This document shows positions 1 through 16,433 of a stretch of DNA of 50,866 nucleotides, piece by piece (position 1 is the stretch's first letter; the number at the start of each line of letters is the position of its first letter). The position numbers were made by a program, and so were the translations under genes. This DNA is from Gammaproteobacteria bacterium. GTDB taxonomy: Bacteria > Pseudomonadota > Gammaproteobacteria > Steroidobacterales > Steroidobacteraceae. Below the pieces are notes generated by a model, which saw only the letters and a list, made by a program, of their open reading frames with translations, had not been told where the DNA came from and did no database searches. The stretch spans positions 1 to 50,866 of the forward strand of contig JANYJY010000016.1 of the NCBI GenBank assembly GCA_025358295.1. Direction: 5' to 3'.

Positions 1-413
1 CCTCGGTAAGTAGAGCCGCGCCATCACAGCCCGCAGCGTCGAGCGCCCGGCCGATGGCCTTGACGCAAGAACCTAAGATTGAATTTTGCCGCGTAGCGGT
101 ATATGTCCGCATGGCGCAACGACCTCCCGCCCGAGCCCGCCAATTGTTGCTTTCAAGCTTACCCCCAATGTGCCAGGGCGTCGATCATGGCTCCTGCCAG
201 ATGGGTTCTGTCTGATCCGAGCACCCATTTTATGTCGTTTGATGTCAAAACGTTGTCGTCTACGGTGCCGCACCACTCCCTGTATCTCGTATTTTACACT
301 GCATGTACGACTGTGGTGGAAAGGCATCAGTCGAGAAAAATAGCCGGTTTAATTCGTTATAGGTTTGGGTTAATAAAAAAACGGCGTGCGGGATCGCTGC
401 GGGGAGATAGCTG
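1..413. other. Upstream region without a convincing gene
   Basis: No reading frame here looks like a real protein. The stretch is the 5' region of the TonB-receptor operon that starts at 414 and contains the 43-base element at 229-271, which recurs at 9191-9233. Just before the receptor gene there is a GGGGAG ribosome binding site. The left edge (about 1-75) could carry the end of a neighbouring gene on either strand, but I see no start codon or recognisable family and make no call. Confidence 0.5.
229..271. promoter_or_regulatory. Shared 43-base regulatory element, copy A
   Basis: The sequence begins TTTATGTCG, continues with six unmatched bases, then a 28-base stretch ending CTACGGTGCCGC. 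Aligned without gaps to 9191-9233 it gives 33 of 43 identities; the 28-base part has 24 of 28. It lies about 140 bases before the start of the first TonB receptor. Regulator unknown; an activator or repressor site common to both promoters is inferred from position and conservation. Confidence 0.6.
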
Positions 414-2930
414 ATGAATCACTCAAGTTGGTTTAAGAGAGTACTTGTCGTTTTGAGCGGGTTAGGTGCGATCGCAACCACGCTGCCCGCCCTGGGCGAG
501 GGCAGCAGCACGACTCCGATCCCGGAAATTACTGAAATCGTGGTTACCGCGCAAAAGCGCGCGGAAAGCGCGCAGAGCGTACCGATTGCGGTGACCGCAT
601 TCACCGGTGCGACTCGCGATTTGATCGGCATCGAAACCACCCAGGATTTGACTAACTATGCCCCGGGCGTGACGTACAGCTTCCAATCCGATCGTATGTA
701 TGTTCGAGGCCTGGGCCGCTCGGCGAATAATTTGGGTATCGACAACTCGATCGCCACTTACTTGGACGGCATCTACAGCTCCTTCTTTCGTATTGCGGAT
801 TCGAGTTCTCTGTTTATCGGTCAAGAGGAAATTTATCGGGGACCTCAGGGCACGTTGTTCGGACGCAATGCCATTGGCGGCGCCTTCGTGCTCAGCAGCC
901 CGCGCCCGACGGACCAGCTGGAGGGTGAGGCGCATCTGAAGATCGGCAACTATCAGTCTCAGGACATCGAAGCCACGGTTTCAGGCCCCATCAGCGATTC
1001 CTTGCGCTTTCGCGCCACTGCTGGTGAGTACAAGCAAGGACAGGGATACTTTAAAAGCGTGACGGGTAGCGATCGCGATGGTGCTGGCTGGAAGAACGAC
1101 CATGAGTATCAGATTCAATTTGCCGGCAACATCGGCACTGCGTTCGAATGGTGGCTGAAGGCCGATCATCTTCATTGGAACATCGGCTGGGGCTCGCAGG
1201 TTCAAACCAGCCCTTATGTCACGAATTGCGTGGGCCCCAGCCTATTGGGCAGCCCCGGTTCCATTAATTGCGGTGGTCTGCAGCCAAGTCCGTGGTACAA
1301 CGCCGCGCCCGGCTTGAATCCGGCGGTGCCGCAATTGACACAGCCAAACCCAGCGAATACCGGCTCAACGTACACAACTCCCAACGACACCAACAATCGC
1401 GAACGTCTCAAAGACGATCAATTGTTCGTGTTCGAAGGCGTAGGGCATTTGGGCTTCGCCAATTTGAAATACACGGGCGGCTTTTTTTCCTCGGAGTACC
1501 AACTAGTCACCGACTACGACAATACGGCACGTCCGTCCTATGTGTTTACCCCCAACGGCGGCGCACCGGTCACGATCAATTCAGCAGAATATTTGAGCTA
1601 CAAGGAAGTCCGGCGTTATTACAGCAATGAGTTGGACCTCATTTCGAGCACCGACGATGCGCTGCAGTACGTTCTTGGCCTGTATCAATACGATGAGCAT
1701 AGCCGACAGCCGGTAAGCATAGGCAATGTCGTGCCGCAGGCCGTGTATCAGTCCCCGCTCGACGGTGCGAGCCTCTTGGCCGGCGCCCCCGCCCCCGCGC
1801 CGCTGAATCCCGATGGAGCCTGGTACCACGTCGACCAGCACACGGCATCGAGATCTGAAGCGGCCTTCGGCCAGCTTGACTGGAAGTTTGCCGACACCTT
1901 GAAGGCAACGGTCGGAGTACGCTACACCCGGGATAGCAAGTCTTCGCGGGATTCCGCACGGTACGTGGTATGGGACCCGACGTTGCCGTTTGGCCTAGGC
2001 GGCGTAGGCATCGATTTCACACCGTTGGCTTTCGGAAAGGTGGCTAAACCCGATCCGTCAGGCAATGGCTACTACAGCCGTCAGCTGCAGATCAATTCGC
2101 ACGCCGTGACAGGGACCGCGGGTGTCGAGTGGATGCCGGATCGCGACACCCTGGGCTACCTTAAGTACAGCCGCGGCTACAAGGAAGCGGGTATCAATGC
2201 CGGCTCCGCGCTAGTCGCAAACCCCTACACCAAGCCTGAATACAACGACGCCTTGGAACTCGGCTGGAAGCAGACCTTGAATCACGTGTTTCAGATCAAT
2301 TCGTCACTGTTCTACTACAAGTACAGGGGGGCGCAATATCCCTTGGTTGAATTTGGTGGCCCGGTTGCGCAGACGGTCTTCTTCAATCTCGACGAGAAGA
2401 TTTACGGCGCGGAATTCGAGACTCAGTGGCAGGCCACAGACGCGCTGCGCTTCCTGATCGACTATTCGTATCTGCGCGCCTATTTCACGGATCGCAACAC
2501 CTATGTCGATGCATTCTCCGGGCTGCCGACGAGCATTTACGGCAACGCGGTCCCGGGGTCGCCCAAGAACAAGTTCACCTTTAATGGCGTGTACACCTGG
2601 CTATTCGCACCAGGCTCCTTTGCGCTTTCAGGTACTTACGCTTGGCGCGATCGCGTCGTATCCACTCCTTTCCCCGATCCTCAATTTGCCGCAGGCTCCT
2701 ATGGGCAAACTGACTTTCGCGGGACTTGGACAGATGTCACCAACCGCTGGAGTGTATTCGGGTATTTAAGAAACGCCCTTGACGTGCGCGGCAGCGATGG
2801 GGTCGGCATCGATTCCAGTCTCTATAGCGCACCGGTGGGCGCGGGCGGACCCACGCTGGCTCGAAGTCTCATCTACCCGCGAACCTTTGGGGTCGAGTTT
2901 AGAGTTCGTTTTGGGGCTAAGGTGCACTGA
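414..2930 (+). CDS. TonB-dependent outer-membrane receptor
   Basis: A protein of 838 residues that should form a 22-strand outer-membrane barrel closed by an N-terminal plug and import a substrate using TonB energy. Residues 1-30 are a signal peptide. The TonB-box region (EIVVTAQKRAESAQSVPIAV) is at about 43-62, followed by a plug domain with the typical YRGPQGTLFGRNAIGGAF stretch near residue 140. The length fits the family. The start is ATG with GGGGAG nine bases upstream. It is the first gene of a tight four-gene operon: the quinohemoprotein gene begins 33 bases after its stop, so the ligand is probably the substrate of that enzyme. The family is common in gammaproteobacteria and sphingomonads for uptake of diverse organic compounds; the substrate cannot be read from sequence. 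The last residues (VRFGAKVH) extend a little beyond the usual terminal aromatic residue. Confidence 0.93.
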   Translation: MNHSSWFKRVLVVLSGLGAIATTLPALGEGSSTTPIPEITEIVVTAQKRAESAQSVPIAVTAFTGATRDLIGIETTQDLTNYAPGVTYSFQSDRMYVRGLGRSANNLGIDNSIATYLDGIYSSFFRIADSSSLFIGQEEIYRGPQGTLFGRNAIGGAFVLSSPRPTDQLEGEAHLKIGNYQSQDIEATVSGPISDSLRFRATAGEYKQGQGYFKSVTGSDRDGAGWKNDHEYQIQFAGNIGTAFEWWLKADHLHWNIGWGSQVQTSPYVTNCVGPSLLGSPGSINCGGLQPSPWYNAAPGLNPAVPQLTQPNPANTGSTYTTPNDTNNRERLKDDQLFVFEGVGHLGFANLKYTGGFFSSEYQLVTDYDNTARPSYVFTPNGGAPVTINSAEYLSYKEVRRYYSNELDLISSTDDALQYVLGLYQYDEHSRQPVSIGNVVPQAVYQSPLDGASLLAGAPAPAPLNPDGAWYHVDQHTASRSEAAFGQLDWKFADTLKATVGVRYTRDSKSSRDSARYVVWDPTLPFGLGGVGIDFTPLAFGKVAKPDPSGNGYYSRQLQINSHAVTGTAGVEWMPDRDTLGYLKYSRGYKEAGINAGSALVANPYTKPEYNDALELGWKQTLNHVFQINSSLFYYKYRGAQYPLVEFGGPVAQTVFFNLDEKIYGAEFETQWQATDALRFLIDYSYLRAYFTDRNTYVDAFSGLPTSIYGNAVPGSPKNKFTFNGVYTWLFAPGSFALSGTYAWRDRVVSTPFPDPQFAAGSYGQTDFRGTWTDVTNRWSVFGYLRNALDVRGSDGVGIDSSLYSAPVGAGGPTLARSLIYPRTFGVEFRVRFGAKVH

Positions 2931-2963
2931 CAGGGCAAACCTTGTTCGCGTGTAAATCTACCG

Positions 2964-4886
2964 ATGACTAAATCTTTCAATCTGCGATTTTGCCGTGCCG
3001 CGTGGGCTGGACTAGCCGCGAACGCCTGTCTTGCCGCCATCGCAGCGGCGCAATCGGCTCCGGCCTCACCGGTCAGCGGTGCGGCCGTGTTCACTGCGCA
3101 CTGCAAGTCTTGTCATGAGCCGCCCATCGAACGAGCTCCGAGTCGGGTGGATTTCGTGTTTCGCCCGCGCGGAGCCATCGTGTCGGCATTGATGACCGGG
3201 GTGATGTCGCCGATGGCAAAGGACCTGTCGCCTGCGGAGATTGACGCGGTCGCTGCCTACTTGCAGCCGAGCGAGATGTTGAGTTCGACCGGGATCGACA
3301 GGCCATGCTCGACAAATGAACCCCTACGCGCCGGCGCCTCCGACTGGCTGAGCATGGGCATTGACGACTCTGCCAGCCGTTTTCAGCGACATCCGGGATT
3401 GCGGGCCGAGGACGTGCCCAAGCTCAAGGTCAAGTGGTCCTTTGCCATGCCGGGCGGGGGTCAGCCCACCGTGATCGGACGTTGGCTGTTCGTCAACAAC
3501 CGCGGCGGAAAGCTATACGCCTTGGACGCAAGGACTGGATGTGTTCATTGGGCTCATGAGGGCTCCGGATCTCGCACGACCCCGATGGTGCTCCGCTCTG
3601 AGATTTCGCCGAGCGGCTGGGTGACGCTTGCAGGCATCGACATCCGCAGGGTGCGCGCCTTTGATGCCCAAACCGGCAAGGTGTTGTGGACCAGCGAATC
3701 GCTGGATTCCCACGCCGCGGCATTCATCAATGGCTCCCCCGTTGTCTCCGGAACACAGATCTTCGTTCCTATCTCCTCGGGCGAGGAAGTGCTGGCCATC
3801 CCGAAAGACTATCCCTGCTGCTCCTTCCGCGGATCCTTGGTCGCGCTGGACCTTAGGACGGGTCGCAGGCAATGGCAGACGTTTATGATTACAGAGCCGC
3901 TACGCGCTACCCGCGTCAACGCAGCGGGCACACAGATGCAAGGACCGGCCGGGGCACCCGTTTGGGCGGCACCCACAGCCGATCCGCAGCGGGGCGTGGT
4001 GTACGTGGCCACGGGAAATAGCTATACCGACGTACCGGCGGACGGTGCCGACTCCATCGTCGCCCTCGACATGAAAACCGGCAGCCTGCGCTGGCGAACT
4101 CAGGCCACTGCGAACGACAATTTTATTCAAGGCTGCTTCGGCTCGATTAAAGCCGCAAATTGTCCCCAGACCACAGGTCCTGACCATGACTTCGGCGCAA
4201 CGCCAATCCTGTTCGGTAAACGCGGGACGCCGCAGGTCCTGATAGCAGGACAGAAGTCGGGAATAGTGTACGGCCTCGACCCCGACACGGGCCGCGTGCT
4301 GTGGGACACAGCCGTAGGGAAAGGTTCGCCTCTCGGCGGAATAGAGTGGGGAATAGCGTCCGATGAGCGCCATGTTTTCGTACCGGTCTCGGATATCGGC
4401 GAAATTTTCGATGAAATTTTAGTGGCCGCCGGCAGACCTCCCATGCTTGGGCTTAATGCGCCGGGCAAACCGGGCCTGTCTGCGCTGGACCCAACGAGCG
4501 GCAAACTCATCTGGAACACGCCCGCCCCCGTCGCGCCGTGCAATTACGCGGGCGACCGGTCCGGCGACTTCATGCGCGGGGCCTGCGTACGCGCGCAATC
4601 CGCGGCGCCGGGCGTCATGCCAGGGGTTGTCTTCTCCGGCACATTGGATGGATGGCTGCGTGCCTATGATTCGGCCACTGGAAAAATCATTTGGGCCTTC
4701 AGCACGACCGCTCAAACTTACCAGACAGTCAACGGCATTGCCGAACAGCCCGGCGGCGGAATCGATGGGATGGGACCGACCATCGCCGGCGGCATGCTTT
4801 ACACCATGTCAGGGTTCAATGGCGCCAGTCGTACGGGAGGCAATGGAATCAATGTCCTGTTGGCATTCTCGGTCGACGGTCGTTAA
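2964..4886 (+). CDS. Periplasmic quinohemoprotein, polyvinyl-alcohol-dehydrogenase-like
   Basis: A protein of 640 residues with a signal peptide (cleavage near residue 30), an N-terminal cytochrome c domain with CKSCH at 47-51 and a likely Met ligand in GVMSPMAKDLSP, then a PQQ-type eight-bladed propeller. Blade repeats such as GKLYALDARTGCVHW, VRAFDAQTGKVLW, GIVYGLDPDTGRVLW and GWLRAYDSATGKIIW are plain. Length and the order heme-then-propeller match the quinohemoprotein polyvinyl alcohol dehydrogenase family (EC 1.1.2.6), which oxidises secondary hydroxyls in the periplasm and passes electrons to cytochrome c. Many relatives of unknown substrate exist, so the family is better supported than the substrate. 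It sits between the TonB receptor and a second secreted heme-motif protein, consistent with periplasmic oxidation of an imported compound. There is no strong Shine-Dalgarno site, so translation may depend on the upstream gene. Confidence 0.82.
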   Translation: MTKSFNLRFCRAAWAGLAANACLAAIAAAQSAPASPVSGAAVFTAHCKSCHEPPIERAPSRVDFVFRPRGAIVSALMTGVMSPMAKDLSPAEIDAVAAYLQPSEMLSSTGIDRPCSTNEPLRAGASDWLSMGIDDSASRFQRHPGLRAEDVPKLKVKWSFAMPGGGQPTVIGRWLFVNNRGGKLYALDARTGCVHWAHEGSGSRTTPMVLRSEISPSGWVTLAGIDIRRVRAFDAQTGKVLWTSESLDSHAAAFINGSPVVSGTQIFVPISSGEEVLAIPKDYPCCSFRGSLVALDLRTGRRQWQTFMITEPLRATRVNAAGTQMQGPAGAPVWAAPTADPQRGVVYVATGNSYTDVPADGADSIVALDMKTGSLRWRTQATANDNFIQGCFGSIKAANCPQTTGPDHDFGATPILFGKRGTPQVLIAGQKSGIVYGLDPDTGRVLWDTAVGKGSPLGGIEWGIASDERHVFVPVSDIGEIFDEILVAAGRPPMLGLNAPGKPGLSALDPTSGKLIWNTPAPVAPCNYAGDRSGDFMRGACVRAQSAAPGVMPGVVFSGTLDGWLRAYDSATGKIIWAFSTTAQTYQTVNGIAEQPGGGIDGMGPTIAGGMLYTMSGFNGASRTGGNGINVLLAFSVDGR

Positions 4887-4924
4887 TCAAAGTCACAAGC
4901 GCAAACTGCGCACTGGGAGTGTTC

Positions 4925-6583
4925 GTGGCCAGTAGGTATCTCTTGGCATTGAGCTTGATGATGGCAGGCATGAGTACCCAGGCGGGTACGCTGTCCGGGA
5001 CAGTCAAAGGCGAGGCGGGGGCCCCGCAGGCTGGCACCATGGTGCGAGTGACCGAAGACAGGCCGAACGGCAATTCGATAACGGTGTACTGCGATGCGCA
5101 AGGCCGCTTCCTCTTAAAAACCAGCCTGAAGGGCGCGTTGAAAGCCCGCTTGCGACAGCCTTATTACGAAGATCTTGAGGAGTCAATCACCCTGCAGTCG
5201 GATGCAGTGCTTACTCGCACATACGTTCTGAAGAAGATGGGGGACGCCCAGGCAATCTCCGACAGCTTGCCCGCAGGCTATCATTTTGGACACCTACCCT
5301 TCGAGACCGCCGTGGGCTCGCCGTTCACGAAGTACCAATTTCAGCGCGACTGCCTGACCTGCCATCAACTGGGCAACGCCCTGACGCGCGTACCGCGCTC
5401 GGCGGAAAGCTGGGCGACCACGATTCAACGCATGCATGCTTACCTTGGAAACTTCGACGTCGAGTTGCGAGAGCGTCGCGCCAAGTTGCTCGCGGCAGGC
5501 TTTGACGGCAATCCTCTAGCAGTGCGTCCGGCGTTTCCCGTGGATCCGCTGATCTTCAAGGCCGCTGTCTACGAGTATCCCCTACCGCGTGCATACTCGC
5601 CGCACGATGCAGCTGTCAGCGAGACCGATGGCTGGGTGTATATCGTCGATCAAGGGGCCGACTTCATGGCGGCAGTCAACCTTGCAACCGGCACCTCTCA
5701 CTATATTCCGCATCCGGCGCAGGGGGTGCAATCCCATGGACCGACCGAGATGGGCGGCGGAGTCCTTCACGGCCCACATTCGCTCGCCATGGCGCCTGAC
5801 GGCAAGTGGTACACGACCAACTCGTTTTCGCAGCGCATCGGGGTTTTCAACCCTAAATCCATGCAGTGGGAAGACTCGATAACGATCGGCGGCCACGCTG
5901 CATATCCGCATACCATTCGTTTCGATAAGCATGGCATTGCTTGGTTCACCCTCGCCCAGAGCGAACAAGTAGGACGATTGGACCCGAAGACTCGGGAGGT
6001 GAAACTGATCGATTTGCCGGCTCTGCGCTCAACGGGAATAGCGGGAGTCACTGTCCCTTACGGAATCGATGTCAGTCCGATCGACGGCACCGTGTGGTAC
6101 ACGCGTTTGTTCGGCGACAAGATCGGACGCATCGAGCCGCAGACTCTGCAACTCAAAGAATACGATTCCCCGGTCAGGGGCCCGCGCCGCATGCGCTTTG
6201 ACAAGGAAGGCTCGCTATGGATCACCGGTTTCTCGGACGGGATATTAGCGCGGGTGCGGCCGAAGCCATTCGCAGCGAGCGAGGGCTTCACGTCAGAACT
6301 TTATCGCTTGCCCGAGTTTACGGCGGGATATCAGCCGGCGCCGTATGCACTGGGCATTAATCCAAAAACACAGGAAGTGTGGATCAACGAAAACCTCACC
6401 GATCGCATTTTCCGGTTTATTCCGAAGGCGAAACGCTTTGTCGTGTATCCCATGCCACTGAGAGGCACCTACACTCGCGATTTCAGCTTCACAAAGGACG
6501 GTAAAGCGTGCACCAGCAACGATCCCGTGCCGCCGGCGGCGCTCGAAGGTGGCGTACAGGAATTGATTTGCATAGAACCGTAG
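4925..6583 (+). CDS. Secreted heme-motif protein with virginiamycin-B-lyase-like propeller
   Basis: I place the start at GTG 4925, preceded by GGGAG five bases upstream, giving 552 residues with a signal peptide (RYLLALSLMMAGMSTQA). An open frame runs back to 4691 inside the previous gene and is not used. Order of parts: a carboxypeptidase-regulatory-like beta-sandwich (about 23-95, beginning TLSGTVKGEAG), a region with one CLTCH heme motif at 143-147, and a beta-propeller of the virginiamycin B lyase/SMP-30 type from about 215 to the end, with repeated DP/NPKT and I.P.T blade motifs (LDPKTREVKLIDLP, IEPQTLQLKEYDSP). Known Vgb lyases open a streptogramin lactone by elimination; relatives with a heme motif are uncharacterised. 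Close spacing to the quinohemoprotein suggests it either takes its electrons or acts on its product. This is a family-level call only. Confidence 0.72.
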   Translation: MASRYLLALSLMMAGMSTQAGTLSGTVKGEAGAPQAGTMVRVTEDRPNGNSITVYCDAQGRFLLKTSLKGALKARLRQPYYEDLEESITLQSDAVLTRTYVLKKMGDAQAISDSLPAGYHFGHLPFETAVGSPFTKYQFQRDCLTCHQLGNALTRVPRSAESWATTIQRMHAYLGNFDVELRERRAKLLAAGFDGNPLAVRPAFPVDPLIFKAAVYEYPLPRAYSPHDAAVSETDGWVYIVDQGADFMAAVNLATGTSHYIPHPAQGVQSHGPTEMGGGVLHGPHSLAMAPDGKWYTTNSFSQRIGVFNPKSMQWEDSITIGGHAAYPHTIRFDKHGIAWFTLAQSEQVGRLDPKTREVKLIDLPALRSTGIAGVTVPYGIDVSPIDGTVWYTRLFGDKIGRIEPQTLQLKEYDSPVRGPRRMRFDKEGSLWITGFSDGILARVRPKPFAASEGFTSELYRLPEFTAGYQPAPYALGINPKTQEVWINENLTDRIFRFIPKAKRFVVYPMPLRGTYTRDFSFTKDGKACTSNDPVPPAALEGGVQELICIEP

Positions 6584-8292
6584 TGAGCCGCGACGGCCCG
6601 AGTCTGCGGCCGCCGCATCGATTCGCCAACGCGCTCAAGCGCCACGGCGTCGAGTATCTGTTCGGACAGAGTAATCCACCCGCCCTGACTCTGGCTGCAG
6701 ATGATCTGGGGATTCGTCAGATTGGGTACCGACAAGAAAATGCCGGCACCTACATGGCCGATGGCTATGCGCGTATCACAGGCAAGGTGCCTGTTGTTAC
6801 GGCCCAGAATGGCCCGGCGGCGACCTTGTTGGTGCCAGGGCTGGCCGAGTGCCTGTCGGCGTCCATTCCCATCGTCGCCCTGGTCCAGGATGTCGGTCCC
6901 GGCTGCCGGGATCGCAACGCGTTTCAGGAATTGGATCAGTTGGAACTGTTCAAGGGAGTGTCCAAATGGATCCGGCGTGTAACGACTGCGGATCGAATCG
7001 AGGACTATGTGGACATGGCTTTTACTGCGGCTGCCAGCGGACGTCCGGGACCCGCGGTGCTGCTGGTGTCCATGGAATTGCTGGCCGAACAAGCCGAGCA
7101 GTCGGTGGCGTCGCGCAAAGCTCGCCTAGGCACTTATCCGCTCGACCGTACCCAGGCTGACGCAACACAAATTGCCGCGGCAGCCGAATTATTGGCCGGC
7201 GCTCACGCACCATTCGTCTTTGCCGGCGGTGGTGTAATCGGTTCACGGGCTGAAGAGGAACTGCGGAGATTGCAGGAGTTGGCTCACCTGCCGGTCGCGA
7301 CAAGCACCATGGGCAAGGGCAGTGTGGACGAAACACATCCCCTGTCGATGGGCGTCATTGGCTACTTCATGGCAACCCGGGGCATGGCGAAGTTCGTCAA
7401 GCCGATCGTAACGGAGGCAGACGTCATCTTGCTGATTGGCAATCGAACCAACCAAAACGGCACCGACTCCTGGAAGCTGCTGCCGGCACAGGCAAACTAC
7501 ATTCACATTGATATTGATCCCGGCGAAATCGGCCGAAACTACGAGGCGCTGCGCCTCAATGGCGACGCCAAACTAACCCTGCAAGCCCTGAATTCCGCCT
7601 TGGCTGCACAGGACCTTTCCAAGCGAAGGTCAGCACGCGCAGCGGTAGAGAGCATCATCGCAACCGCGAAGATTCGCCATCGCGAGGAAATCGCCGGCGT
7701 CACTTATTCCAATGCTGCGCCGATTCGCCCCGAGCGTTTCATGGCCGAAGTCGAAGCGCAATTGTCACCCGATCATATCGTAGTGGCTGACGCGAGTTTC
7801 TCGTCAATCTGGGTGGCCAACTACCTCACTGCCAAATTCGAACGGCGCTTTATAACTCCCCGAGGCCAGGCGGGTCTCGGCTGGGGGTTCCCCATGGCCA
7901 TGGGCGCCAGCATAGGCAGGCCCGATAGACCAGTCTTCTGCGTTGTCGGCGACGGGGGCTTTGGCCATGTGTGGTCTGAATTGGAAACGGCACGGCGGCA
8001 CGGCATTCGAGTGGTAGTGGCGGTCATGAATAACGCGGTTCTCGGCTACCAAAAACATGCCGAAGACGCTCTGCTGGGGCGGCATACGAATGCCTGCGAT
8101 TTCTTGCCGGTTGACCATGCAGCGATTGCTGAGGCGTGCGGAGTGAAGGGAATTCGCGTCGCCCGCGCCGAGCACATTGCGGCGGCGATCAAGGAAGCAA
8201 TGGCGGCCGACACGGCCGTGCTCATCGATGTACTTGTCGATCCCGACGCCCTGCCGCCGGTGACGGCGTTTACCCGATTGCCGCACTACTGA
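6583..8292 (+). CDS. ThDP-dependent enzyme, acetolactate-synthase/decarboxylase-like
   Basis: The likely start is GTG 6583, which shares one base with the previous stop (TAGTG) and suggests translational coupling; TTG 6568 with an upstream ACAGG is the alternative. The protein is about 569 residues with the three-domain plan of the IlvB family: an N-terminal pyrimidine domain with the cofactor-activating glutamate at E52 (YRQENAGTYMADGYAR), a central Rossmann-like domain, and a C-terminal pyrophosphate domain with the motif GDGGFGHVWSE...NN at about 456-486. These enzymes cleave or form C-C bonds next to a carbonyl (acetolactate synthase, benzoylformate or oxalyl-CoA decarboxylase, 2-hydroxyacyl-CoA lyase). 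No small regulatory subunit gene lies nearby, which argues against a housekeeping acetolactate synthase. As last gene of the operon it probably acts in the cytoplasm on an intermediate produced after import. No signal peptide is seen. Confidence 0.85.
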   Translation: MSRDGPSLRPPHRFANALKRHGVEYLFGQSNPPALTLAADDLGIRQIGYRQENAGTYMADGYARITGKVPVVTAQNGPAATLLVPGLAECLSASIPIVALVQDVGPGCRDRNAFQELDQLELFKGVSKWIRRVTTADRIEDYVDMAFTAAASGRPGPAVLLVSMELLAEQAEQSVASRKARLGTYPLDRTQADATQIAAAAELLAGAHAPFVFAGGGVIGSRAEEELRRLQELAHLPVATSTMGKGSVDETHPLSMGVIGYFMATRGMAKFVKPIVTEADVILLIGNRTNQNGTDSWKLLPAQANYIHIDIDPGEIGRNYEALRLNGDAKLTLQALNSALAAQDLSKRRSARAAVESIIATAKIRHREEIAGVTYSNAAPIRPERFMAEVEAQLSPDHIVVADASFSSIWVANYLTAKFERRFITPRGQAGLGWGFPMAMGASIGRPDRPVFCVVGDGGFGHVWSELETARRHGIRVVVAVMNNAVLGYQKHAEDALLGRHTNACDFLPVDHAAIAEACGVKGIRVARAEHIAAAIKEAMAADTAVLIDVLVDPDALPPVTAFTRLPHY

Positions 8293-8294
8293 AA

Positions 8295-8308
8295 GCGGCG
8301 AACGCCGC
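8295..8308. terminator. Small GC hairpin between convergent genes
   Basis: GCGGCG and CGCCGC separated by two bases form a short dyad between the stops of the ThDP enzyme and the SDR, which are only 22 bases apart. There is no T tract on either side, so a termination role is only a guess from position. Confidence 0.22.
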
Positions 8309-8314
8309 GACGTA

Positions 8315-9082
8315 TCAATCCGCGAGGCGAGCTAGGACCTTGTTGCGAAAACCCGTGAGCCGCCCGCCGTCCACCACGAAGGTGTGGCCGGTGATGTACC
8401 TGCTCTGATCGCTGGCGAGGAAGTGGTACACACCCACCAAATCGTCTACTTCAGCGATTCGCCCTAGCGCTGAAAGATGCTTTGCAAGGGTGTTCAGAAT
8501 GTGTCCCGGCGGTAGCATGGGAGTTTTGACCGGCCCAGGCGCAACGGCATTGCAACGAATGCCGCGTAAGCCGAGTTCGACTGCTGCGGTCTTGGTCATG
8601 CTGATGGTGGCTGCCTTGGTCGCGCTATAATCGAAGAAGCCTTCATTTTGCTGCAATCCGGCCACCGAGGCCGTGGTAATGATCGACCCACCGTCTCGCA
8701 TGTGCCGCGGTCCATACTTCAAGATGTAGTAGGTGCCATAGAAATTCAGTGCCACCACGGCGTCCAGCATTTCCTCATCGGAGTCCGTGAGGTGGTGGCC
8801 CTTTCCAGGCATGCCCGCATTGTGAACGATGACATCAAGCTTGCCGATGGTTTCCTCGGCGTACTTGAAGGCACTGACGACGTTGTCGCGATCGGTGACG
8901 TCGGTCGCCCGGAAAATCGCCCCGGCGTCGAGCACCGATTTCGGCGGCGCTTGAATGTCAGCAACGACAACCCGAGCGCCCTCCTGCAAGAAGCGCTGAC
9001 ATGTGCCGAGACCGATCCCCGACGCGCCGCCGGTGATGAAAACGGATTTATTCTCGAGGCTGAAGGGGGATGAATTTTCGAT
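8315..9082 (-). CDS. Short-chain dehydrogenase/reductase with non-canonical ATC start
   Basis: Classical SDR: the NAD(P)-binding motif TGGASGIG is at residues 17-24, the HNAG segment near 87, catalytic S139, Y152 and K156 (YSATK). The frame reaches back to a TGA at 9095-9097 without any ATG, GTG or TTG; the first of these inside the gene is TTG 8989, which would remove the whole nucleotide-binding motif. The only plausible start is ATC at 9082, which has GGAG with a six-base spacer upstream and gives 255 residues, the normal size for the family. ATC starts are very rare, so this may be a mutated ATG (a weakened or dead gene) or a sequence error. It converges on the ThDP enzyme and is divergent from the MFS transporter; it probably oxidises or reduces a hydroxyl or carbonyl in the same pathway. 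Confidence 0.8.
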   Translation of the reverse strand: MENSSPFSLENKSVFITGGASGIGLGTCQRFLQEGARVVVADIQAPPKSVLDAGAIFRATDVTDRDNVVSAFKYAEETIGKLDVIVHNAGMPGKGHHLTDSDEEMLDAVVALNFYGTYYILKYGPRHMRDGGSIITTASVAGLQQNEGFFDYSATKAATISMTKTAAVELGLRGIRCNAVAPGPVKTPMLPPGHILNTLAKHLSALGRIAEVDDLVGVYHFLASDQSRYITGHTFVVDGGRLTGFRNKVLARLAD

Positions 9083-9190
9083 AAATCTCTCCGGTCAAGA
9101 TATCCCTTTCCCATGTGAGTGAGGGGCCTGGATGTTTCAAGCCTATATATGGGCGGCATTAGATTCAATACGCTTGGCAGACGGCACGCC

Positions 9191-9233
9191 TTTATGTCGC
9201 CGCCGGTCAATACCTTGTCCGCTACGGTGCCGC
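9191..9233. promoter_or_regulatory. Shared 43-base regulatory element, copy B
   Basis: Gap-free match to 229-271 (33 of 43 bases). It lies in the 223-base region between the divergent SDR (start 9082) and MFS (start 9306) genes, so one site could serve both. The outer bases also carry GGCAC on the left (9183-9187) and GTGCC on the right (9227-9231) as an inverted pair about 40 bases apart. It is not inside any credible gene. Confidence 0.6.
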
Positions 9234-9305
9234 GCAGCGATCGCTTTCCGGTAAGAAAGGGACGTGTAGTACATCCCATCAAGATCAAAAATCGGGGAGT
9301 GACCC

Positions 9306-10760
9306 ATGTCGAAGCCCTTGCAATCCATCGCAGCCGCTGCGCGCAACGGCGATCGCTCGCGCGAATTTCATCCTGCAGGCGTCTCGGCAACATGGTTCGC
9401 ACTGTTCGTACTTTTCGCGCTCAACCTGCTAAATTTTTTTGACCGGCAACTCATCGGTGCACTGGGCGAGCCGATTCGCAAGGAATTTCATTTGAGCGAT
9501 ACCGGGCTTGGCCTGCTGAGCACCGTTTTTACGTTGATGTACGCCGTCGTCGGTATTGCATTCGGGCGCTTGAGTGATCGGTGGTACCGCACGCGGCTCA
9601 TCGCCGCCGGCGCCGCAGTTTGGAGCATTCTGACTGCCGCTTCTGGGCTGGCCCAAAGCTACACGCAGCTGTTCGTCTCCCGGCTGGGCGTGGGGGTGGG
9701 TGAAGCGACCTGCGCGCCCGCTGCCCACTCGCTGATCGGCGACTTGTATCCGCCGCATCAGCGCGCGCGCGCCATGGGCGTGTTCATGCTTGGTCTGCCC
9801 GCCGGTATATTTCTCGCCTACCTGAGCGCCGGCGTCCTCGGTTCGGTACTTGGCTGGCGCAGAACGTTTCTGATCGCCTGCGTTCCCGGCTTGATATTCG
9901 CGGCGTTAGCGGCGGGCATTAACGAACCAATACGTGGTGCCTGGGATACGGCCGGGGCGGCGGTATCGTATGACGCCATCCGTTCGCCGTACAGGGCGGT
10001 GCTCAGACTGCCGACGATGTGGTGGATCATCCTGTCGGGCGTCTTCCACAATTTCAACATGTATGCTCTGAATGCTTTCCAGACGCCGTTCCTGCAGCGC
10101 TTCCATGAAATGACCCTCAAAGAGGCCAGCAATGTGTCCGCAGTATCGGTGGGCCCGGTCGGGGCCATTGGTCTGCTAGCCGGCGGATGGCTCGCCGATA
10201 GGATCAGTGTCACGCGCCGCGATGGACGGCTGGTGGTCTCAGCGTGGGCCATGGCCATCGCTGCACCGTGCATATTCTTCGCTCTCAATCAACCCAAGGG
10301 CGCCACTGCGGGCTTCATTGTGCTCATGTCGCTGGGCACGATGACGATGTATGTTTACTACGCTACTGTTTATTCAGCGATTCAGGATGTGATCGAGCCT
10401 GCACTGAGGGGTACCGCGGTCGCCATTTATTTTTGCGCCATGTACATACTCGGAGCCAGCATGGGGCCGCTCGGGACGGGAATTCTGAGCGATCACTTTG
10501 CGCATCACGCGATGATCATCGCCGGTGCAAATTCCATGACGGCGGGCTTCAAAGCAGCCGGCTTGCATAGCGCCATGTATGTCATCCCAGCGCTGGCGGT
10601 GGCGGCGTCGCTGACACTTTTCGCGGCGTCACGGACAGTGGCAAAGGACATACAACCGCAGGATCGGGCCGGCAAAGAATCGGGTAGCGTGACCCACAAC
10701 GAAACCGCGAACACCAGCGTGCGCAGGTACGGTATGCCGATGATGTATATCGGAAAGTAA
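9306..10760 (+). CDS. MFS transporter with a chimeric C-terminus
   Basis: The frame encodes 484 residues with about 12 hydrophobic segments. It contains the family signatures LNFFDRQLIGALGEPIRKEF in TM1 and GRLSDRWYRTR in the TM2-3 loop, typical of the spinster-like/anion-cation-symporter side of the major facilitator superfamily. The ATG has GGGGAG six bases upstream. It should carry a small organic anion or lipid-like compound across the inner membrane. The last 25 or so residues (from about GSVTHNETAN to the stop) are the antisense reading of a MAPEG-family gene fragment on the other strand, so the natural stop appears to have been lost at a rearrangement near 10690. The tail lies after the last membrane segment and may be harmless. 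The adjacent 43-base element links it to the TonB-receptor operon. Confidence 0.85.
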   Translation: MSKPLQSIAAAARNGDRSREFHPAGVSATWFALFVLFALNLLNFFDRQLIGALGEPIRKEFHLSDTGLGLLSTVFTLMYAVVGIAFGRLSDRWYRTRLIAAGAAVWSILTAASGLAQSYTQLFVSRLGVGVGEATCAPAAHSLIGDLYPPHQRARAMGVFMLGLPAGIFLAYLSAGVLGSVLGWRRTFLIACVPGLIFAALAAGINEPIRGAWDTAGAAVSYDAIRSPYRAVLRLPTMWWIILSGVFHNFNMYALNAFQTPFLQRFHEMTLKEASNVSAVSVGPVGAIGLLAGGWLADRISVTRRDGRLVVSAWAMAIAAPCIFFALNQPKGATAGFIVLMSLGTMTMYVYYATVYSAIQDVIEPALRGTAVAIYFCAMYILGASMGPLGTGILSDHFAHHAMIIAGANSMTAGFKAAGLHSAMYVIPALAVAASLTLFAASRTVAKDIQPQDRAGKESGSVTHNETANTSVRRYGMPMMYIGK

Positions 10761-10948
10761 GCGAGCCGCGCCCAGAAGTAGAGCTGCGCCCCGAGCGCCG
10801 TATGGCCTGTGGTCTGTCTTGCAAGAACCACCGCCAGTACGACCGCGGCGAAGAAAGGAAAGGTTTCAAGGAAGTTTCGGCTAGCCCGCTCAGCGCGGGA
10901 GGCGGCTCCGGTGAGTGGTTCGGGGGTGCCGTCGCGGTTGCCCATCAT
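10690..10948 (-). pseudogene. MAPEG-family protein fragment
   Basis: On the minus strand the frame from ATG 10948 reads GNRDGTPEPLTG, then RNFLETFPFFAAVVLAVVLA and GAQLYFWARLAYFPIYIIG followed by IPYLRTLVFAVSLW, the conserved core of small MAPEG membrane proteins of about 130 residues. The N-terminal membrane helix is absent: an in-frame TAA lies three codons before the first ATG. After FAVSLW the frame runs into the antisense of the MFS gene, and the family C-terminus is lost. Both ends are therefore missing, and I read it as a relic. Confidence 0.6.
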
Positions 10949-11019
10949 GCCGAATTATCGCCGAGCATGGAACTGGCCACGCGACGGGCTCGGCGGGACG
11001 CTGCTGGGACCCATCCGGG

Positions 11020-11658: not shown

Positions 11659-12819
11659 TCAGCCAAGGTCGATTTGGCGGCGCCGCATGACGTGCTCAAA
11701 TGCTTCCATGAAGTGCTCATTGTCTGCACGCCTACCCACGCTGACGCGTATGAAAGTATCGTACCCGGGTTCCAACCACGGCTTGACAATGACGCCAAGC
11801 CGCAGCAGTGCCTCGGCAATTTCGCGGCTAGAATTTGCAGTGTCGATGAATAGGAAGTTTGCCCTAGACGGCGCAATTCGCAAGCCGTATCCCTGCACCG
11901 ATTCGACGGAGTTGAGCCTATCCGCCAGCAAATCGCGCTCTCGGGCTGTTGCGCTAACCGTCGCTTGCAAATGCTCGGCGTCGCTCAGCGCTGCTAAGGC
12001 TGCCTCTTGGGCGGCCGAATTGACATTGAACGGTGTTCGAACTCGATCCAGGATCGATACCAGCTCGGCGTCAGAGGCTAACCCATAACCGATGCGCAGA
12101 CCGGCAAGAGAATAAGCCTTGGAAAATGTCCGGAGAACTAACCAGGGGCGCGGTTGCGCGGACAATAATTTGAGGCTATCCGGGTAGTCTTCATGCGCCG
12201 CGTACTCGTGGTACGCCTCGTCCACTACCAGCACAGCGTCCGGAGGAGCGGCATTGATCAACTCCCGAAACTCCGCGGTCCTCAATATACAACCAACGGG
12301 ATTAGAGGGCGTGCTGAACATTACCAACTTAACAGGAGCCCGGCACAACGATCTGCGCCAGAGCGGCAGATCATAGCCAAAATCGGCATTGATCCGAACC
12401 TTGTCGACCGTAGCGCCCATCATTAGCGGAAATATTTCATGGAGTCCGAACGTCGGCGCAAGGGTCACCACCCGATCTCCTGGTGAAAGTAGGGCCTTGC
12501 ACAGCATTTCGATAATGTCCTCGGAGCCGTTGCCAAAGACAATCCGGTCGGCCTCGATTGCGTTAAGCGCCTGAATTCGCTCCCGCAGCGCCGTGCATTT
12601 AGGATCCGGATAGCGATAAATCTGGTGAAACGCCCGTTCGAATACTTCAATGACCGCAGGGCTGACGCCGAACGGATTTTCGTTGCTCGCAAGTTTGGTT
12701 ACCCGCGCAAGATTGTATTTGGCCCGGGCGGTACGTTCGGAAATGCCCGCGTTATAGATCGGCAGCGATCGGGCTTCCGGTCGGCAAAGATCAAGACTGG
12801 AGGTAGGAGCTGGCGTCAT
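11659..12819 (-). CDS. Histidinol-phosphate-aminotransferase-like PLP enzyme
   Basis: A protein of 386 residues of the class I/II aminotransferase fold, HisC group. Visible parts: substrate/PLP region ASNENPFGVSP (44-54), GNGSEDII (97-103), STPSNPVG, the cofactor aspartate in VVDEAYHEY (D200), and the Schiff-base lysine K234 in RTFSKAYSLAGLRIGY. HisC transfers an amino group between histidinol phosphate and 2-oxoglutarate, but HisC-like paralogues also act on aromatic amino acids or other imidazole or amino substrates. No other his biosynthesis gene is in the window. It lies 132 bases downstream of a TonB receptor on the same strand and close to a HutC-type regulator and an NCS1 permease, so a catabolic or salvage role on an imported nitrogen compound is as likely as histidine synthesis. 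Confidence 0.8.
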   Translation of the reverse strand: MTPAPTSSLDLCRPEARSLPIYNAGISERTARAKYNLARVTKLASNENPFGVSPAVIEVFERAFHQIYRYPDPKCTALRERIQALNAIEADRIVFGNGSEDIIEMLCKALLSPGDRVVTLAPTFGLHEIFPLMMGATVDKVRINADFGYDLPLWRRSLCRAPVKLVMFSTPSNPVGCILRTAEFRELINAAPPDAVLVVDEAYHEYAAHEDYPDSLKLLSAQPRPWLVLRTFSKAYSLAGLRIGYGLASDAELVSILDRVRTPFNVNSAAQEAALAALSDAEHLQATVSATARERDLLADRLNSVESVQGYGLRIAPSRANFLFIDTANSSREIAEALLRLGVIVKPWLEPGYDTFIRVSVGRRADNEHFMEAFEHVMRRRQIDLG

Positions 12820-12951: not shown

Positions 12952-15378
12952 TTAAAAGTGGAAGTCTGCCGAGACACCAATGGTTCGCGGAGTGAGAGTG
13001 TAGCCACGATTCACTGTCTGAAGATTCGGTCGCTGAATGATTTTTTGATCGTTGAAGACGTTTTTGGCAAAAACCGAGAATTCCCAAGCGTGGTAATCGG
13101 CGCCGGCAGTGATTGCAGCGACGGCATACGCGGGACGTTTGTAGTCAGGATCGGTCACGCCGACCGTGCCATGACTCGCGCCCAAATAATTCCAGTCAGC
13201 GGTTGCGAAACCGACGACGTTGGTGCCGACCGCTGCATTGTATCGGGTGGAAACATCAGCGCTCCAGCGCGGTACCCCGGGGACATCCTGGCCGCGCGTA
13301 ATACCGAGCGACGGCACGTCCGATGTTAGCGTGGCGTTGGTATATCCGCCCGCTATTCCGACCGTCATGCTCGATATCGGCTTGAACCGGATCTCCGCTT
13401 CGCTGCCGTAGCTTCTTGCAGACCCGGCGTTCGTGTTGTAGTCGAACGTGCACGCTAAGTTGATATCGACCTGAATATTCTTCCAGTCGATAAAGAATGC
13501 ATCGCCGACAATCGAAAGCCTTCCATCGAGAAGCAGAGATTTGACGCCCACTTCGTAGTTCCACAGCGAATCAGGACCATAAGATGCCGGCGTGGTGGGA
13601 CAAAACGAGGGTAGTGGCCGGTTCGGTCCTCCCAAACGAAATCCCTTGCTTGCGGTGAAATAAGCGGAGGTGTCGTCGTCAATGTCATAGCTCAGCGTGA
13701 ATTTTGGAGTCGTCGGCCTGGCGCGATCCACGACCTTAATTGCGGGCGGTGAACCCGTAGCAAAATAAAATTCTCCCATCCGCAAGAGCGATGTCTGCGC
13801 AGTGAGGTAGCGAAGCCCTACCGTGGCGCGCAGCTCGGGCAGAATGTGATAGGTGGCCTCGCCGAATACTGCAATCTGGCGCTCGTTGAACAGTTTGTTA
13901 TTGAGATAGACCGCATCGCCGAGAAATACCGGTGGTGCTGGGCCACCTAGCGCCTGCAGAAATGCCGGCGCAGTGGCGAATCCGCTGCCATACACAGTCG
14001 TCAGCGCGTTACCGAGGCCGGGAGCAGTCTCAAAATCACGCGAGTCGAGCTTTTGATTCGAGTAAAACGCGCCTGTGATCCAAGTGAGCTTGGAACCGTT
14101 GTTCACATATGGCTTGGAGGCGAGCCGCAGTTCTTGCGTAAATTGCTGGGTCCGGATCTGATAGTGAACTGGAGATGCGATATTGCCGATTTGATTTCCA
14201 TCCAGATTGCCGTCGAGGCCCACGATGCCGGCGCCATCAATGAGCGAACCGATGAAGCCTGAGTTATAAAATGTGCCATCAACTATACGATCAAAGTTGC
14301 GATAAAAATAACTCGTAACCGAGGTCAGATCCGCGCCGCCAAAATCATAGCCTACGGCGACACTCGGGACGGCCAAGGTGTCCTCGCCGGACTCCACCAC
14401 CCGCTTGTGCTGCGACAATAAATCTGCCGAGCCGAGGTCCAACACATTGAGATCATCGCTTTTGAAACGCTGGTATAGGAGCGATGGCTTGACGTTCAGA
14501 GCAGCCGACGGCTCCCATTCCAGCTCGAGCCGCGCCGTGATCGACCGATCGCCGTTGACGCCTTTGGCGCGGAGCTTACTGGGATCATCGGGAGAGAAGT
14601 GGTCGATATAACCACTGTTGGAGGACGCGGAGATTCCCGCACGAACCCCCAGCTCACCGGGAATGATCGGCGCATTCAGGACGCCCCGTTCCTTATAGTT
14701 GGCGCCGCCGTGTTTGGTCCAAGACACCTCGGAGTGGACTTCGCCACTGAATTTGTCGAGCGACACGGGCGTCGAGATGTACCGAATCGTGCCGCCCTCG
14801 GAACTGGCGCCATAAAGCGTGCCTTGAGGACCGCGCAAGACTTCCACCCTTTGAATGTCGAAGAAACTGGGTTCGACCTGGCCCTGAGTATCCAAATTGC
14901 GCACCGTCAACGGAATATCGTCGAGATAAACAGCAACCGTTGATGACCCCGCAGTCGAGCTGATCCCGCGCAATTCTATATTTTGATTGCCCTCGCCGCC
15001 TTGAGTGGAGAAAGACAAGTTCGGCACCGATCGCGCCAAGTCTGCGATTTCAGTGATATGTTGATCGGCGATGTCCGCCGCGGATACGACCGTGATGCTT
15101 GCAGGAACCTTGCGCACATCTTCTTTGATTTTTTCCGAGGTCACGATCACCTCATCGAGCTCCGCCGCGGGGTCAATCGGCCCGGGCGAGGCAGCTACAG
15201 CGAAGAGCGAAGGCGCTGTAGTCATGAGCGCTGTGAGGGTTATGAGCGATATGCTTGAGAATCGGGGGAGGCCATTCATTCTACTTCGCCGATCGCAGGG
15301 TCGAATCCCGCTGTCACAGGGTCGCATGGATCGTATAATCGGCAGAATCACGTGTCCGCGCGGGTGGCTTTTTTTCAT
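12952..15378 (-). CDS. TonB-dependent outer-membrane receptor
   Basis: The frame gives 808 residues from ATG 15378, which has AGGAG about 11 bases upstream. A second ATG at 15279 would give 775 residues and a cleaner signal peptide (SSISLITLTALMTTAPSLFAVAAS), so the true start is open. The TonB-box region DEVIVTSEKIKEDVRKVPAS is followed by a plug with VEVLRGPQGTLYGASSEGGT and a barrel ending in the terminal aromatic GVSADFHF. It belongs to the same broad family as the receptor at 414 but is clearly diverged from it. Direct repeats at 15480-15509 lie about 100 bases upstream and match those in front of the GntR gene, which predicts control by that regulator. The ligand is unknown; the neighbouring NCS1 permease points to a nucleobase-, hydantoin- or imidazole-like nitrogen compound. 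Confidence 0.92.
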   Translation of the reverse strand: MKKSHPRGHVILPIIRSMRPCDSGIRPCDRRSRMNGLPRFSSISLITLTALMTTAPSLFAVAASPGPIDPAAELDEVIVTSEKIKEDVRKVPASITVVSAADIADQHITEIADLARSVPNLSFSTQGGEGNQNIELRGISSTAGSSTVAVYLDDIPLTVRNLDTQGQVEPSFFDIQRVEVLRGPQGTLYGASSEGGTIRYISTPVSLDKFSGEVHSEVSWTKHGGANYKERGVLNAPIIPGELGVRAGISASSNSGYIDHFSPDDPSKLRAKGVNGDRSITARLELEWEPSAALNVKPSLLYQRFKSDDLNVLDLGSADLLSQHKRVVESGEDTLAVPSVAVGYDFGGADLTSVTSYFYRNFDRIVDGTFYNSGFIGSLIDGAGIVGLDGNLDGNQIGNIASPVHYQIRTQQFTQELRLASKPYVNNGSKLTWITGAFYSNQKLDSRDFETAPGLGNALTTVYGSGFATAPAFLQALGGPAPPVFLGDAVYLNNKLFNERQIAVFGEATYHILPELRATVGLRYLTAQTSLLRMGEFYFATGSPPAIKVVDRARPTTPKFTLSYDIDDDTSAYFTASKGFRLGGPNRPLPSFCPTTPASYGPDSLWNYEVGVKSLLLDGRLSIVGDAFFIDWKNIQVDINLACTFDYNTNAGSARSYGSEAEIRFKPISSMTVGIAGGYTNATLTSDVPSLGITRGQDVPGVPRWSADVSTRYNAAVGTNVVGFATADWNYLGASHGTVGVTDPDYKRPAYAVAAITAGADYHAWEFSVFAKNVFNDQKIIQRPNLQTVNRGYTLTPRTIGVSADFHF

Positions 15379-15580: not shown

Positions 15581-16321
15581 CTAGCGCTCTGGCGCTTCTG
15601 AGACCTTATATCGACTGGCGAGACTGTACCGAGAACCCGGGTATGTGAAGATATTATTGGTGGCGGGGTCCGAATTGACCCAGGTTTGTCGCGTCATCTG
15701 CAAGCATGGCTCCGAAGCCTCGGTATTAAGGAGCTTGCAAATACGAGCGTCAGGCCGGATCGCATACACCGCATTCGCGACCTCCGTCGGAGCCGCAATA
15801 CCCTGTAGGTAGTGGGTCGTCGTTATGTTCGCAAAGTCCTGTTGCAGATAATCCGGGGCAAACAATGGTGTGACAAATCGTTCTTCTAGTTGCACGGCTA
15901 TGCCTTCCTCGAAGTGCACAACTAATGAATGAAAAATTCGCGCATTGGGCTTCTGTTGGAGCACAGCGGCGAGTTCGGAATTGGCTCGGATAACGCCTAT
16001 TTTAATGAGACGCAATGAATGACGGTGCCCGCGGGCCACAATATCATCGGCGATATCCCGGACTTCTATAAGCGGCGACCGCTGTGTCGGGGTGGCGACA
16101 AAAGTGCCCACTCCCACCATCCGCTGTACCAGGCCTTTGGCTGATAGTTCGCGCAAGGCGCGGTGGACCGTCATCCGCGAAACGCCAAACTGTGCCACCA
16201 GTTCGTGTTCTGAGGGAAGACGGGTCCCCACGGGCCAGTCGCCATTGTGGATGTGAGTAAGGATGTGCTGCTTAACGTGCTCGTAGAGCGGCCCCGGAGA
16301 GACTGGGCGGCGCTTTGTCAT
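15581..16321 (-). CDS. GntR-family regulator, HutC/UTRA subgroup
   Basis: I choose ATG 16321, giving 246 residues, the usual family length; an open frame continues to TTG 16375 but would overlap the operator repeats. Residues 1-75 are the winged helix (LPSEHELVAQFGVSRMTVHRALRELSAKGLV, with the recognition helix near SRMTVHRAL). Residues 80-240 are a UTRA ligand-binding domain. HutC proteins repress histidine-utilisation genes and release DNA on binding urocanate; relatives sense other small molecules. The gene is divergent from the NCS1 permease, and the two repeats at 16336-16355 sit 15 bases before its start, so autoregulation and joint control of the permease are likely. The end of the UTRA domain contains the expected TRQTWV segment. 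Confidence 0.86.
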   Translation of the reverse strand: MTKRRPVSPGPLYEHVKQHILTHIHNGDWPVGTRLPSEHELVAQFGVSRMTVHRALRELSAKGLVQRMVGVGTFVATPTQRSPLIEVRDIADDIVARGHRHSLRLIKIGVIRANSELAAVLQQKPNARIFHSLVVHFEEGIAVQLEERFVTPLFAPDYLQQDFANITTTHYLQGIAAPTEVANAVYAIRPDARICKLLNTEASEPCLQMTRQTWVNSDPATNNIFTYPGSRYSLASRYKVSEAPER

Positions 16322-16335
16322 CGGAATGTACACAT

Positions 16336-16355
16336 AGTATAGACTAGTATAGACA
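16336..16355. promoter_or_regulatory. Two 10-bp direct repeats between regulator and permease
   Basis: AGTATAGACT and AGTATAGACA are adjacent copies; on the minus strand each contains the TCTATAC core found three times at 15480-15509. The site is in the 112-base gap between the divergent GntR and NCS1 genes and could block both promoters. Confidence 0.6.
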
Positions 16356-16433
16356 ATCGATCTTCGAAGCACCAACGGGGCCTTGCGCCCAGTTGGGCTG
16401 GTTCTTAATCACGCCGGCAAGGGATTACCACGC

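Follow-up and report, generated by a model that had tools for sequence, protein, structure and literature searches.

Among the closest described systems to the element analyzed here are those of XylS and ArgR. In the available excerpts of PMC4514859 and PMC5481539, the operator of XylS at the Pm promoter is given as TGCA-N6-GGNTA-N6-TGCA-N6-GGNTA, and in that of PMC10963909 the ARG box of the Pseudomonas ArgR is given as TGTCGC-N6-GNAA, repeated in tandem with 5 bp between the copies and a period of 21 bp. The present work deals with a 43-base element that is found twice, as copies a and b, in a stretch of 50,866 nucleotides of a member of the Steroidobacteraceae (assembly GCA_025358295.1, contig JANYJY010000016.1, forward strand), hereafter called the window. 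A preliminary description of this DNA had proposed that one regulator, unlinked or unseen, binds both copies. We propose that an AraC/XylS-type activator, encoded beside copy a (gene start at 112, minus strand), would use the element as its operator and control three, probably four, transcripts. This reading is built on sequence comparison, and we give it a probability of about 0.84.

Results

Element a (229-271, plus strand) is located upstream of an operon beginning with a TonB-dependent receptor gene, and element b (9191-9233, plus strand) between a gene of the short-chain dehydrogenase/reductase (SDR) family and a divergent one of the major facilitator superfamily (MFS). Both have the same orientation and are 8,962 bases apart. 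Their ungapped identity is 33 of 43 bases, with 24 of 28 at element positions 16-43, so that the recount reproduced the preliminary figures; the location of both copies outside genes was also borne out. The runner-up ungapped 43-mer to a or b on either strand of the window reached 26/43. In addition, the intergenic stretches 113-413 and 9091-9305 were resampled with a first-order Markov model for 1500 rounds; the top 43-mer match between the real stretches was 33, while the resampled maximum was 29 and none of the 1500 rounds reached 33. The 3' core of the element alone, TTGTCNNCTACGGTGCCGC, was rejected as a search pattern: at up to 2 mismatches it gave places in 72 of 98 genomes, mostly noise according to a reversed-pattern control, and the convincing ones were the window pair and its copies in the congener genome G021 only. 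It is the double half-site in its full length of 37 bp that makes a useful core.

The inner structure of the element was studied by sliding its 16-base first half along a, b and a third copy, c, described below. The self-match was 26/48 at shift 21, and the next best value among shifts 5-39 was 19. The resulting layout is TGDC, N6, KGYYAA, N5, TGDC, N6 and RGY followed by looser bases, that is, a pair of direct half-sites with a spacing of about two helical turns, as in operators of the AraC/XylS type. The half-sites of element a are found at 233-248 (TGTC-N6-TGTCAA) and, proximal to the promoter, at 254-269 (TGTC-N6-GGTGCC), and those of element b at 9195-9210 (TGTC-N6-GGTCAA) and 9216-9231 (TGTC-N6-GGTGCC), all of them on the plus strand. 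When nine sites were aligned, 13 of the 41 columns were invariant and formed two blocks per half, corresponding to the two boxes about 6 bp apart of such operators. The downstream box B was kept only loosely, and the sequence between the conserved boxes was divergent among sites. A palindromic operator was rejected, as no inverted repeat of at least 12 was present at promoter a or b.

Measured from the TTG of the second half-site, a −10-like TA-box starts at 38-39 bases in 12 of the 13 sites. The predicted boxes, whose positions are inferred, are TATTTT at 290-295 for promoter a and TAAGAA at 9252-9257 for promoter b (both plus strand), and the forms read across the sites were TATTTT, TAAGAA, TAAGAT, TAAGCT, TACGCT, TAGTCT and TAGGCT. 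Matches to TATAAT summed over the 13 sites peaked at 38-39 (44/78), most other offsets giving 12-30. The peak was 27 for eight less redundant sites, left after dropping as near copies three sites of G021, that of G150 and site d of G014; sets of circularly shifted sites gave a mean of 20.4, and 2 of 5000 reached 27. A −35 region placed 17 bases before the −10-like box would, judging from the position of that box, overlap the second half-site. A sigma-70 scan did not identify a hexamer pair at promoter a or b, as expected of activator-dependent promoters.

According to the preliminary description, 1-11,000 is free of regulator genes. This was wrong, as positions 1-112 (minus strand) contain the 5' end, the first 37 codons, of an AraC-family regulator gene, which runs off the start of the contig, where the window also starts, and continues on contig C68. 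The minus strand of 2-112 translates to MRTYTATRQNSILGSCVKAIGRALDAAGCDGAALLTE, and the remainder of the gene is found at L048 8412-9476 (C68, minus strand). The congener G021 (loci L031 and L033), which is 92.9% identical to the window over 10,690 aligned positions, has an intact orthologue (L033 4098-5183) of 361 residues with an Arabinose_bd domain (PF12625, 150 bits) and an HTH_18 domain (74.5 bits). Thus a regulator with a C-terminal AraC helix-turn-helix domain is encoded beside the element. A PF12625 profile search of the own genome returned two genes, the second of which, on contig C26, is 28% identical to this regulator; the C68/window gene is the only full-length member of its clade found there. 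The proposal of a shared site and a regulon is supported by the repeat structure, the spacing of the −10-like box, the conservation in the congener and in distant relatives and the genome-wide scan, and its 'unlinked or unseen' part is not, since the regulator is the divergent neighbour of element a with its first 37 codons inside the window. The case shows that a contig edge can make a cut regulator gene look absent. The assembly break itself is within the regulator gene: in L033, the stretches that match the end of C68 and the start of the window (1-91) share 91 bases.

Further copies were searched in the own genome. The pattern TGTCGNNNNNNGTCAANNNNTTGTC (TGTCGN6GTCAAN4TTGTC) occurs exactly at three places in this genome and at three in G021; at up to 3 mismatches the places are 199 and 172, respectively. 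We also used R1, a sequence-only motif model built from nine sites, site d excluded. R1 ranked site c first (E 6.2e-9), followed by b (2.1e-8), a (1.8e-7) and d, on contig C54 (9.7e-5). The next place had an E of 0.078, and the six places listed at E of at least 0.078 look like noise. The model scans scored 150 candidates per genome in this search and 30 in the family scan described below, numbers at which weak sites can escape. Site c, on the minus strand of contig C68, is flanked by the regulator gene and by one of the flavin-monooxygenase type, which starts 121 nt downstream of the site. The gene that starts 173 nt downstream of site d encodes a second TonB receptor; an MFS gene comes after it, and a pyrroloquinoline quinone (PQQ) dehydrogenase gene is divergent to it. 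Thus a, b and c are three strong own-genome copies and d is a weaker fourth. The preliminary description had named an occurrence at random or within coding regions across the genome as a finding that would speak against its proposal; this was checked, and each of the four best places (E ≤ 9.7e-5) is upstream of a gene.

G099, G150, G027 and G144 each have a regulator 67-70% identical to that of G021, and in all four genomes a TonB receptor gene is divergent to the regulator gene with a site between the two. With only own and G021 sites in the matrix, the Markov p of the best intergenic score was 2.5e-4 for G099, 2.5e-4 for G144, 5e-4 for G027 and 2.5e-4 for G150, and the same-locus window p was 0.0016, 0.0025, 0.0013 and 0.0099, respectively. 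These are not four independent tests, because G099, G150 and G027 are close relatives, and for the same reason the Fisher combination of the p values (4.9e-11) was not relied on. These controls were used instead of a set of 30 control loci (85,794 bases), as the latter had been fetched by a related pattern and is biased upward; its best score, 24.2, equals that of two of the four orthologue sites. In a locus-wide scan the sites of G099, G027 and G144 ranked first and that of G150 second (17.1 vs 18.5). In these four genomes the receptor is an orthologue (65-67%) of the one encoded behind site d in the own genome. Consequently, what is a link between neighbours in the relatives survives here in the form of a site on a different contig, and this is an independent argument that the regulator clade and the site belong together.

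In G013 and G009 the regulator (65 and 62% identical) is at another locus, and a site with a −10-like box is located upstream of the homologue of receptor d (p 0.001 and 0.002, respectively, with a matrix that includes the own site d and so favours G013). Among the 27 genomes with a homologue of this receptor, six had a listed site already, G213 was left out and 20 were read upstream, in nine of which the presumed start is not ATG, GTG or TTG and the stretch may be misplaced. No site stood out before 17 remote homologues (49-52%), 2 of which were below p 0.05 (0.035 and 0.038). Genome G014 has site d and, in addition, a strong site e (L124 1576-1616, G014:C175, minus strand; E 4.8e-7), with the gene of an acyl-CoA dehydrogenase 47 nt downstream. 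In the family scan, 7 of 217 genomes had an R1 place at E of at most 1e-5 and 8 of 217 carried a clade regulator at 62% identity or more; six genomes are in both sets, an overlap partly built in, because sites of these same genomes had served to train R1. Weak model matches at G014:C10 (inside the gene at L127 7170-8153), G027:C5 and G033:C4 were not counted as sites. Finally, 16 loci of the Vgb-like protein encoded in operon a were scanned, and the element was present in that of the congener (L033) only, the best score elsewhere being 14.2. At the Povalibacter locus L032 an AraC gene 26% identical to the regulator is located beside the cluster; the best place of this locus (20.8 bits, 13169-13206) does not adjoin it.

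Operon a comprises, all on the plus strand, the TonB-dependent receptor gene (414-2930), a gene for a PQQ-propeller protein with a cytochrome c domain, of the quinohemoprotein type (2964-4886), one for a Vgb-like propeller protein with a CXXCH motif (4925-6583) and one for an acetolactate-synthase-like thiamine-diphosphate enzyme (6583-8292), which scored above the NCBIfam cut-off of NF004772. The MFS transporter gene (9306-10760, plus strand) is the presumed target of element b. The divergent SDR gene (8315-9082, minus strand) was not placed in the regulon. Its reading frame (8315-9094) has no ATG, GTG or TTG between the upstream in-frame stop (9095-9097) and the Rossmann motif, and the likeliest start is ATC at 9080-9082, behind GGAG; the listed open reading frame of the G021 orthologue (L031 8581-9255) likewise starts only at an internal TTG. 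Further along the window are another TonB receptor gene (12952-15378, minus strand), a GntR/UTRA regulator gene (15581-16375, minus strand) and a cytosine/purine permease-type gene (16383-17819, plus strand). On C68, a gene for a 1181-residue protein of the indolepyruvate ferredoxin oxidoreductase family (L048 1859-5404, minus strand) is found downstream of the flavin-monooxygenase gene.

Discussion

From the features described above we infer binding, activation and the existence of a ligand in the following way. Two regulator monomers, with two helix-turn-helix motifs each, would occupy the two direct half-sites, reading box A (TGDC) and, after six bases, box B (KGYYAA) in the upstream half; in the downstream half box A is unchanged, while box B, beginning with RGY, is looser. 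The distance of 21 bp would put both half-sites on one face of the helix. Since the −10-like box is at a near-fixed distance, the proximal half-site would reach into the −35 region, and the dimer, when bound, could recruit RNA polymerase once the N-terminal domain had sensed a ligand. The putative targets are the operon of the TonB receptor, PQQ, Vgb-like and thiamine-diphosphate proteins (a), the MFS gene (b), the gene of the flavin monooxygenase next to that of the regulator (c) and, probably, the second TonB-receptor/MFS operon on another contig (d). Judged by their predicted products, the target genes look like a set for the uptake and oxidation of one organic substrate.

Several observations weigh against this activator reading. 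With TGGCG/TGACG, site d departs from the other sites, and a decayed paralogue may have left it as a relict; the congener G021 lacks receptor d at E 1e-200, so that d is unconfirmed there. The own-genome count of AraC-type genes covers only those bearing PF12625. In site e of G014 the −10-like box is at 41, that is, 2-3 nt further off, and the −10 score has a secondary rise, of 37, at offsets 51-56. In addition, elements a, b and d and the sites of G099, G144, G027 and G150 are located between divergent genes, and the orientation of the target is partly chosen by the reading. Regarding the relatives, the regulator was not found in G014, a genome 71% complete, despite its sites d and e, and in G020 the site is weak (p 0.018) and the regulator no more than 28% identical. 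Finally, G027 has a second clade regulator (66%, with 1 TGA reported), and no convincing site was found in its locus L063; this gene (11763-12743, minus strand) is beside an SDR-like gene.

Three other explanations were considered. The one that survives best, unlikely as it is, is that the neighbouring regulator represses, or that the divergent SDR gene, alone or together with the MFS gene, is served by element b. Repression also occurs among AraC-family proteins, and element b does lie between divergent genes. However, the site is upstream of a −10-like box at a near-fixed distance, without a sigma-70-like hexamer pair at a and b, which is the layout of an activated promoter, and element b is oriented to its −10-like box as the other sites are. 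It is more improbable still that another regulator, for example the PF12625 protein of C26 or an uncounted AraC-type protein, binds the element and that the adjacent gene is there by coincidence. Half-sites of this type could be common within the AraC family, and the sites of G014 stand without a detected regulator; on the other hand, the low identity of the C26 protein, the presence of the clade of the adjacent regulator beside the site in four other genomes and the fact that six of the seven family genomes with a place at E of at most 1e-5 carry this clade (217 scanned; partly built in via training) speak against it. That the copies were left behind by a promoter duplication, a recombination or a mobile event and play no part in regulation themselves, as direct repeats flanking about 9 kb might suggest from their common orientation and spacing, can practically be dismissed, because more copies are found at promoters on other contigs and in other genomes and not at the ends of the same unit, the element consists of two half-sites at 21 bp and the sequence between the conserved boxes has diverged.

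A decayed second copy of the regulator gene is found at L069 10471-10928 (G000:C48, minus strand). Its pieces correspond to residues 1-19 and 160-296 of the 336-residue match of G013, which keeps a full-length regulator at the corresponding locus, and the surroundings are conserved. The regulator split between C68 and the window may now serve site d. A tentative, and rather doubtful, extension of this is a hand-over in which one activator acquired new catabolic genes along with an older promoter, the operator shifting from TGGCG to TGTCG. It is suggested by the location of the clade regulators beside receptor d in G144, G099, G027 and G150 or elsewhere in G013 and G009, and by the decay of the C48 copy, with the only full-length member found located at the TonB-receptor/PQQ operon and receptor d keeping its site. 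If true, it would be a readable case of the growth and rewiring of a regulon.

For a set of uptake-and-oxidation genes in the Steroidobacteraceae, the analysis defines an operator and names a candidate regulator and its targets, all specific enough for testing. It also offers a route to the substrate, as the ligand of the regulator should be a substrate or product of the receptor, PQQ-dehydrogenase and monooxygenase genes. We found no description of this regulon, a statement based only on those literature searches that returned no paper.

With respect to known systems, the best NCBIfam model for the regulator was that of QhpR, an AraC-like regulator (NF049968), with 213.9 bits, 36 bits short of the curated cut-off of 250, and it was not assigned to this equivalog. 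As a further difference, family scans of the operon-a proteins returned no amine-dehydrogenase family. The upstream halves of b and c (TGTCGC-N8-AA) resemble the ARG box of ArgR as given in the excerpt of PMC10963909, and the 21-bp period is shared as well. However, they read TGTCGC-N6-TCAA, with T for the G of GNAA, and a starts with TGTCGT, so that the element was not taken as an ARG box; moreover, unlike those of ArgR, the targets here are not arginine genes. There is also a likeness to XylS at Pm, as far as the excerpts of PMC4514859 and PMC5481539 describe it, in the two direct half-sites, in the succession of box A, N6 and box B and in the 21-bp period. The proximal site at −35, deduced here from the predicted −10, would be a further point in common. 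The differences are in box A, which is TGDC and not TGCA, in box B (KGYYAA or RGY), in the PF12625 N-terminal domain of the regulator and in the targets, which are receptor, dehydrogenase, permease and monooxygenase genes. The arrangement of operator, activator and promoter at this locus is thus very probably an instance of a kind of gene switch that is already known.

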